Both the position numbers and the translations under genes were made by a program. 40,696 nucleotides of DNA, taken from positions 1 to 40,696 of the forward strand of contig CAIJXH010000004.1 in the NCBI GenBank assembly GCA_903824595.1, written 5' to 3'. The notes below the pieces were generated by a model that did not search any database, was not told where the DNA came from, and saw only the letters and a list, made by a program, of their open reading frames with translations. This document shows, one piece after another, positions 7,928-20,445 of the stretch (position 1 is the stretch's first letter; every line of letters begins with the position of its first letter). The DNA comes from an uncultured bacterium (GTDB lineage: Bacteria > Patescibacteriota > Minisyncoccia > Phycocordibacterales > UBA2100).

Positions 7928-7980
7928 ACCGCCATTGTCGCATGCCATATATCAAACGCAACGACAAATCCACATATGAG

Positions 7981-8054
7981 TCCGCCCGCTTGGACTCGAA
8001 CCAAGGACCCTGGAGGTATAAGCTCCATGCTCTAACCAACTGAGCTACGGGCGG
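7981..8054 (-). tRNA. tRNA-Ile(UAU)
   Basis: Minus strand CCGCCCG TA GCTC AGTTGGTTA GAGC A TGGAG CTTATAC CTCCA GGGTC CTTGG TTCGAGT CCAAG CGGGCGG A; full cloverleaf, anticodon TAT, no encoded CCA. Confidence 0.93.
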
Positions 8055-13953: not shown

Positions 13954-14353
13954 GGGGGTGACTGGCTTCGACAGTGAAATCAGCGCATGCGAATGCGCGG
14001 CAGGAGCGGATGACTCCTTTCAACGTCCAAACTTCAAGTGCGAACAAAGTAGCACGGGCAGTCCTTTCGCCTATCCAGATGAAGGACTTGCAGCTCGCTT
14101 ACGCTCTCGTAGCCTAAGCGCCGTCCGATGATCCGAAACTTGATCAAGATCACTCGGGCGTAAAAATCTCAAGTGCAAGCATGTAGTGTCCCACACATGC
14201 CCCAAGGGACGGGACTAGAACGATGGTGATTCTGTTCGTCTCATACACCATTACTTGAATACGTCTTCAATGACGACCAAGACGATCCACGCCGCGTCGA
14301 TGTTCGTTTGTGTTTTTCGCTGGACCGGGGTTCGATTCCCCGCACCTCCACCA
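13954..14353 (+). ncRNA. ssrA: tmRNA
   Basis: 5' GGGGGTGACTGGCTTCGACAG and 3' CGGGGTTCGATTCCCCGCACCTCCACCA acceptor/T-arm pairing; tag reading frame GCG AAC AAA ... GCC TAA at 14040-14117; next to smpB. Confidence 0.96.
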
Positions 14354-19642: not shown

Positions 19643-19680
19643 GCGCCGAAAAAACCGCCCTCGGGCGGTTTTTTCGGCGC
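19643..19680. terminator. Strong bidirectional intrinsic terminator
   Basis: GCGCCGAAAAAACCGCCC (19643-19660) TC GGGCGGTTTTTTCGGCGC (19663-19680), perfect inverted repeat with T-run on both strands. Confidence 0.93.
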
Positions 19681-19797
19681 GGCTGGTACGGCAGGCCTGG
19701 ACTGGAAAACCAGGTGGGTTGCCGCAGTGTCAGCACCACGGTGCCGCACGATATGAGCATCCCTATAATCTACCAAGCAGGTTTTAGTACCGGCCGC
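19679..19797 (-). ncRNA. Candidate structured small RNA, unassigned, ~119 nt plus terminator
   Basis: Minus-strand terminal helix GCGGCCGGTAC (19797-19787)/GTACCAGCCGC (19689-19679) with one mismatch; extended -10 TGCTATACT at 19813-19805 places +1 at the helix base; terminator directly after. Confidence 0.6.
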
Positions 19798-19804
19798 TAC
19801 AGAA

Positions 19805-19813
19805 AGTATAGCA
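19805..19813 (-). promoter_or_regulatory. Extended -10 promoter (TGCTATACT) for the candidate small RNA
   Basis: Minus strand GGTGCTATACTTTCTGTA|GCGGCCGG. Confidence 0.55.
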
Positions 19814-19842
19814 CCACAGAAATAAATGCAAACTCTCCCGCA

Positions 19843-20445
19843 TTACTCCAAAATTCCGTCGAGGTTTACGTCGTAGAGAATACCCTCCTGCACTGTCTTG
19901 TAGGAAATCTTTTCTTTTTCGGAGAACCAGAGTGGAATCTCGCGATTGGCTTCGGCGACGTTTTCGGAGCAGTGGATAAGGTTGCGCACCGCACGATCGT
20001 CGATCGCCGCAATCGCGTACGAATCGAGCGTGAGATCGCCGCGGATAGTGCCCACATCAGACGTAGTCGGCTCCGTCGTACCTACGAGCTTGACCACGAC
20101 CGCCGCCGCCTGATTACCCTCAAGCACCATCATCACCACAGGACCAGCAGTCATGAATTTCACGAGCGCGCGGATGATGTCTTTGCCGTACTCGATCGCC
20201 TGTTTGTCGGCGCTCATGCCGGCAGCTTTGCGATCTTCTATAATGCGTGCGCCTTTCTTTTCAAACCACGCATCGTCTTTGTTGTAATGTTTCCAGAGCA
20301 CCGCCTCCTCCGCCATGCCAAATTTCATCGCGACAATTTTGAGCCCTGCGCGTTCAAACCTTTTGATAATTTCCCCCACCAACCCGCGCTGAATACCGTC
20401 GGGCTTGATAATGACGAGCGTACGCTCTTGTTTAGGATGTTGCAT
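19843..20445 (-). CDS. ndk: Nucleoside diphosphate kinase (longer than the usual ~140-150 aa)
   Basis: RTLVIIKPDGIQRGLVGEIIKRFERAGLKIVAMK, GTIRGD, NLIHCSENVAEANREI. Confidence 0.94.
   Translation of the reverse strand: MQHPKQERTLVIIKPDGIQRGLVGEIIKRFERAGLKIVAMKFGMAEEAVLWKHYNKDDAWFEKKGARIIEDRKAAGMSADKQAIEYGKDIIRALVKFMTAGPVVMMVLEGNQAAAVVVKLVGTTEPTTSDVGTIRGDLTLDSYAIAAIDDRAVRNLIHCSENVAEANREIPLWFSEKEKISYKTVQEGILYDVNLDGILE

Follow-up and report, generated by a model that had tools for sequence, protein, structure and literature searches.

Organization of the locus

We analyzed a stretch of 40,696 nucleotides from an uncultured bacterium of the Patescibacteria, referred to below as the window. On its minus strand, a gene for a small structured RNA is located between ndk and a gene of the SLOG/LOG family; all features of the RNA gene described here are on that strand. 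In the direction of transcription, an extended -10 element (TGCTATACT, positions 19805-19813) is followed by a self-closing RNA of 119 nt (19797-19679) and then by a terminator. The original prediction, made from the DNA letters alone, had placed the -10 element at the same positions (19813-19805). Its consensus in the genus is GTGnTATACT, and its distance to the RNA is constant across the 29 closest loci. A consensus scan also returned a weak -35-like hexamer (TTTGCA, 19827-19832) with a 16-nt spacer to the -10 element; this hexamer is not significant alone and is absent from the genus consensus. Taken by itself, the promoter scan was at chance level (2 found, 1.9 expected from shuffles). The base directly 5' of the closing helix is an A in 28 of the 29 closest loci, so the transcript likely starts at A19798. 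With this predicted start, the gene that we annotate as a compact 6S RNA spans 19679-19798. The annotation is based on the genus alignment, on two covariance models (R1 and R2), and on coincident matches to the Rfam 6S model (RF00013) at homologous loci.

The intrinsic terminator hairpin (19645-19678) has 15 bp in the minimum free energy (MFE) structure, and its T-run falls inside the 3' arm. The predicted hairpin is thus present, though shorter than the 18 bp first assigned to it, a count that had taken in bases shared with the closing stem. Homologues have terminators directly downstream in the same place, unrelated in sequence. A conserved RNA followed by exchangeable terminators points to a stand-alone RNA gene, and the housekeeping-type structured RNA gene that had been proposed is borne out by its own promoter and terminator, its conservation, and its covariation. 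The open reading frames that cross the RNA had been judged spurious; the homologues indeed differ in length by non-multiples of three, with the pairing kept.

The ndk gene (19843-20445, minus strand; Pfam PF00334) is directly upstream. Its protein has about 200 amino acids, compared with the 135 positions of the Pfam NDK domain, which is matched in two stretches. The alignment with homologues from throughout the class extends over about 190-200 amino acids, and an insertion appears to be conserved. A tmRNA gene (13954-14353, plus strand; predicted tag ANKVARAVLSPIQMKDLQLAYALVA) is located about 5 kb from the RNA gene. The window also encodes a tRNA-Ile with anticodon TAT (7980-8054, minus strand), which is unusual in bacteria, where AUA is mostly read by a lysidine-modified CAU tRNA.

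Predicted fold and covariation

The ends of the RNA form closing stem P1, in which GCGGCCGGTAC (19787-19797) pairs with GTACCAGCCGC (19679-19689), with one C/A mismatch. This is the 11-nt pairing seen originally; it is recovered in the MFE and RNAalifold structures, and all 10 pairs covary. The base of the apical stem is formed by GGGaUGC (19757-19763) and GCAaCCC (19716-19722), which belong to the two halves of the core motif, GGGAnnC and GnnaCCCACCUGG, respectively, and are supported by RNAalifold, the Rfam alignment, and covariation. The apical hairpin (19726-19750) varies in sequence and length, with its pairing kept (helix 4 in the covariation analysis). The MFE structure contains both interior helices of the original prediction, GGGaTGC/GCAaCCC and GCAC-CGTG-GTGC. 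The rod of closing stem, central bubble, and apical stem that is expected of a 6S RNA is found by RNAalifold and in the pair counts.

Two helices compete within the central bubble. In one, GCUUGG of the 5' bubble (19773-19778) pairs with CCAGGC (19695-19700) as a P2-like helix; in the other, CCUGG (19710-19714) pairs with 19700-19696 as a 3'-bubble hairpin, which is recovered by RNAalifold and by covariation (helix 5). The segment 19700-19696 serves both, and the two helices are mutually exclusive. The two conformers of the window RNA fold at -47.2 and -47.5 kcal/mol, within 0.3 kcal/mol of each other, and the hairpin remains when the 5' bubble is masked during folding. Among 44 sequences from outside the genus, the 5' and 3' bubble strands of the same RNA pair at -10.9 kcal/mol versus -8.0 kcal/mol when strands are swapped between RNAs (standard deviation of the mean, 0.33; best of 60 shuffles, -8.9 kcal/mol), where the segments taken from some sequences contain a small number of closing-stem bases. 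An exchangeable P2 helix between the bubble strands, as in 6S RNAs, is therefore present, and the helices that had been drawn as alternatives include this real competing pair, as judged from the conformer energies and from native versus swapped strands. The unpaired part of the 5' central bubble (19764-19772) is the predicted region of pRNA initiation, by analogy with the 6S RNAs in PMC8876501.

Single-sequence statistics were modest: the core has a z of -2.1, with 6 of 200 shuffles folding as well, and z reaches -4.8 once the terminator is included. In an alignment of 73 sequences, standard pairs make up 95.5% of the pair cells, double-sided changes number 577, compared with 146 ± 13 after shuffling, and the covariation score reaches 0.77 versus 0.22 for shuffles and at most 0.14 with the partners slid; these values are inflated because this alignment had been fitted to the structure. 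Covariation is present in every helix. In the unfitted MAFFT alignment of the genus, RNAalifold already finds double changes in 10 of 29 pairs. The prediction was to be dropped if neither conservation nor covariation could be found; the RNA is conserved, and its fold covaries.

Distribution and linkage to ndk

A DNA search matched the RNA region in 34 of 70 genomes from the same family, nearly all from the same genus, and it is this conservation that establishes the gene as real. Most of the relatives that carry names are Candidatus Kaiserbacteria, and one bears the label Paceibacterota. The 29 aligned loci have in common GCGGCYGGTAC-TTAAACCTGCTTGGT...GGGANNC...GNNACCCACCTGG...CCAGGC...GTACC-GCCGC, and the length of the core ranges from 116 to 154 nt across the genus.

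We built covariance model R1 from the 29 genus loci and model R2 from the same set plus distant members. R1 matched 87 of 384 class genomes at E <= 0.1, with one match each. The window copy scores 109 bits with these models. At E <= 0.01, R2 recovered the RNA in 162 of the 384 class genomes (42%) and in 118 of 333 genomes from the phylum, nearly always as a single match. The filters were strict, so these counts are probably lower bounds; in class genomes that R2 does not match, the RNA has either been lost in some lineages or is still being missed. A free-standing gene with usually one copy per genome is again what is expected of a 6S RNA. At some loci R1 also matched the opposite strand; we did not take these matches for genes, since they mirror the closing stem. 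Searching viral contigs with ndk yielded nothing.

In 58 of 73 loci, the RNA is preceded on its own strand by an ndk homologue, usually about 30-450 nt away. The distance is 49 nt in the window and 304 nt at L065, a 6S locus above the Rfam cut-off. No upstream ndk was found in 15 of the 73 loci (one of these, with ndk on the opposite strand, was tallied separately), and only 18 of the 73 have a LOG gene downstream; the RNA persists in both situations. Both the position relative to ndk and the RNA structure fit common descent of the loci.

Assignment to the 6S RNA family

We interpret the gene as a compact, divergent 6S RNA of Patescibacteria, with its own sigma-70-type promoter behind ndk and an intrinsic terminator, and give this reading a probability of about 0.9. 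The assignment rests on the homologues, since the window copy scores 10 bits with RF00013 (cut-off 46.4) and L012, a locus from the same genus, has no 6S match. At the Rfam gathering threshold, the window yielded only tRNA and tmRNA, with nothing at the RNA locus. Low-threshold matches in the window (RNAI, STnc370, AS-pc01, and similar) were rejected, since they mainly match the terminator hairpin. A search of the window's own family with RF00013 gave no match on the locus, a result that resembled a refutation of 6S until the distant homologues were scanned.

In permissive scans of these distant homologues against all of Rfam, 6S was the sole sensible family at the locus. The scores were 33.1 (L040), 32.7 (L056), 28.8 (L053), and 28.7 bits (L041); L039, which comes from a different genus within the family of the window, has 17.9 bits, and loci outside the class reach 35.5 (L102), 33.3 (L104), 30.8 (L103), and 23.3 bits (L100). 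An independent search of the class with RF00013 returned 13 matches at E <= 1, and ten of these coincide in place and strand with R1 or R2 matches (genomes G230, G265, G107, G169, G227, G381, G421, G249, G146, and G207). The G230 copy scores 51.3 bits over all 187 positions, which makes G230 the only one of the 384 class genomes with a match above the Rfam cut-off; the other homologues at coincident loci score 23-40 bits. The RNA of G421 was matched by RF00013, missed by R1, and recovered by R2, although G421 had not been included in R2.

The printed RF00013 alignments have a common core, GGGAGcC...GGcaCCCACCUGGA, also given as GGGAGcC...GGcaCCCACCUGG. The core of the Rfam consensus is GGGagcc...ggcaCCCACCUgg, and the window form of this motif is GGGATGC...GCAACCCACCTGG. 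The anatomy of the window RNA is also 6S-like, with a closing stem, a central bubble, competing bubble helices, and GGGAnnC...GnnaCCCACCUGG. In the reverse comparison, R2 placed its best match within 3 kb on the E. coli 6S locus, with a score of 9.2 bits that is not significant. The 119-nt core is shorter than the 160-200 nt typical of 6S RNAs; 6S-1 constructs remain functional in vitro after truncation (PMC8876501), and such a length is therefore a typical property and not a definition of 6S. The original prediction had called the RNA unassigned. That label does not hold, because homologues match RF00013 at the same loci and share the 6S core motif and the ndk neighbour. The comparison with all of Rfam that had been proposed gave a confident match to a known class through homologues only, while the window copy stayed below the cut-off.

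Proposed mode of action

By mimicking an open promoter, 6S RNA keeps bacterial RNA polymerase parked. The polymerase initiates within the 5' bubble of known 6S RNAs, and the resulting pRNA opens helix P2; the freed strands refold, and the RNA leaves the enzyme (PMC8876501). From this analogy we infer polymerase binding, pRNA synthesis, release, and physiology for the compact RNA as well. With its closing and apical stems around the central bubble, the RNA is shaped like an open promoter. It would occupy the active site of the RNA polymerase holoenzyme with the housekeeping sigma factor, restraining polymerase under nutrient shortage. Once NTPs are available again, the polymerase may start on the 5' bubble strand (approximately 19772-19764) and copy the 5' strand of P2 as a short pRNA. 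This pRNA would break P2, leaving 19700-19695 free to form the 3'-bubble hairpin, and the RNA would be released.

Alternative explanations

There is a small probability that the RNA belongs to a distinct minimal subclass of polymerase-binding RNAs in Patescibacteria, in which only the central bubble with short arms is retained and either the target (core or altered holoenzyme) or the release differs from that of canonical 6S.

Considerably less probable is an Ms1-like RNA, which would have a 6S-like shape, bind core RNA polymerase without sigma, and store the enzyme. Ms1 is structurally related to 6S RNA and replaces it in Actinobacteria (PMC9130861), and which form of the polymerase is bound cannot be read from a fold alone. 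However, scans of the homologues against all of Rfam match RF00013 and no other polymerase-binding family, and the competing P2 and 3'-bubble helices, as used in pRNA-driven release, are present.

We regard as very improbable a new housekeeping RNA of Patescibacteria that is unrelated to 6S and arrived at bubble and stems by convergence. The failure of RF00013 on members of the same genus and the weak reverse test with E. coli would fit such an RNA; this reading is largely refuted by the 10 of 13 RF00013 matches that coincide with R1/R2 loci. The sequence motif in the core that is common with 6S and the ndk neighbour of the copy above the Rfam cut-off also speak against it.

There is hardly any probability left for the missing SRP RNA of the lineage. 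The length is similar, the gene is single copy, and SRP RNA was not recognised elsewhere: the small SRP model RF00169 matched none of 68 family genomes and none of 40 phylum genomes carrying the compact 6S RNA, and the large SRP model RF01854 gave no match in the window's own genome, while the same searches matched 12-13 of 14 control genomes. SRP RNA in the surveyed Patescibacteria is either strongly divergent or lost. Against this identity, the RNA matched no SRP family up to E = 10 in the window or up to E = 1 in the homologues, which match 6S instead. What is conserved in SRP RNA is the terminal hairpin, which in the compact RNA is the most variable part. The absence of SRP, 5S, and tRNA signatures had been stated correctly.

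An untranslated leader or tail that regulates the downstream LOG-family gene or ndk in cis would account for an RNA near to and between two same-strand genes, but is hardly credible for one that has its own promoter and terminator and persists at loci without LOG or upstream ndk. RNase P RNA was rejected because it is found on contig C7, as was tmRNA, whose gene is elsewhere in the window.

Comparison with known polymerase-binding RNAs

The compact 6S RNA resembles 6S RNA/SsrS (RF00013) in its closing stem, central bubble, apical stem, and core motif, in the competition between P2 and the 3'-bubble hairpin, in its single copy with promoter and terminator, and in the scores of its homologues (up to 51.3 bits). 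It differs in its short apical arm, in a core of 119 nt compared with about 200 nt, and in genus members that escape detection by RF00013. Its gene is linked to ndk, whereas E. coli 6S is found in the fau/ygfA neighbourhood.

Among the known systems, Aquifex aeolicus also has a short 6S RNA in a small-genome bacterium (PMC9130861, PMC8876501). Aquifex belongs to another phylum, and its 6S RNA, at about 160 nt, is longer than the core described here; it has been called one of the shortest (PMC9130861), which makes a 119-nt core unusually small. Truncated B. subtilis 6S-1 constructs, with a central bubble and two short arms, can still go through the 6S cycle in vitro, at an affinity reduced about 10-fold (PMC8876501). 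These are laboratory constructs, whereas the window RNA is a natural form with a similarly reduced layout, near the smallest known to work in vitro. Ms1 of Actinobacteria shares the 6S-like shape, and its weak sequence conservation means that synteny is needed for its detection (PMC9130861); unlike the compact RNA, it comes from another lineage, binds core polymerase, and measures about 230 nt in Streptomyces coelicolor.

Among the open-access papers searched, none reported 6S RNA for the candidate phyla radiation, Saccharibacteria, or Parcubacteria; the sole paper found for 6S RNA and Patescibacteria uses "6S RNA" for an SRP RNA. We regard the RNA as a new lineage within a known family, compact and so far overlooked, which Rfam misses in nearly every Patescibacteria genome.

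Bacteria widely use 6S RNA as a global brake on transcription. Its recovery from at least 162 of 384 class genomes indicates that bacteria whose genomes measure about 1 Mb or less also have this regulator. A new covariance model would fill the annotation gap across a very large phylum, and structural work could draw on the compact form as a naturally occurring minimal 6S RNA. In some close relatives (L025, L027, L029, and L030) the RNA measures 142-154 nt and its apical arm is enlarged, so the length of the apical part is evolving within one genus.
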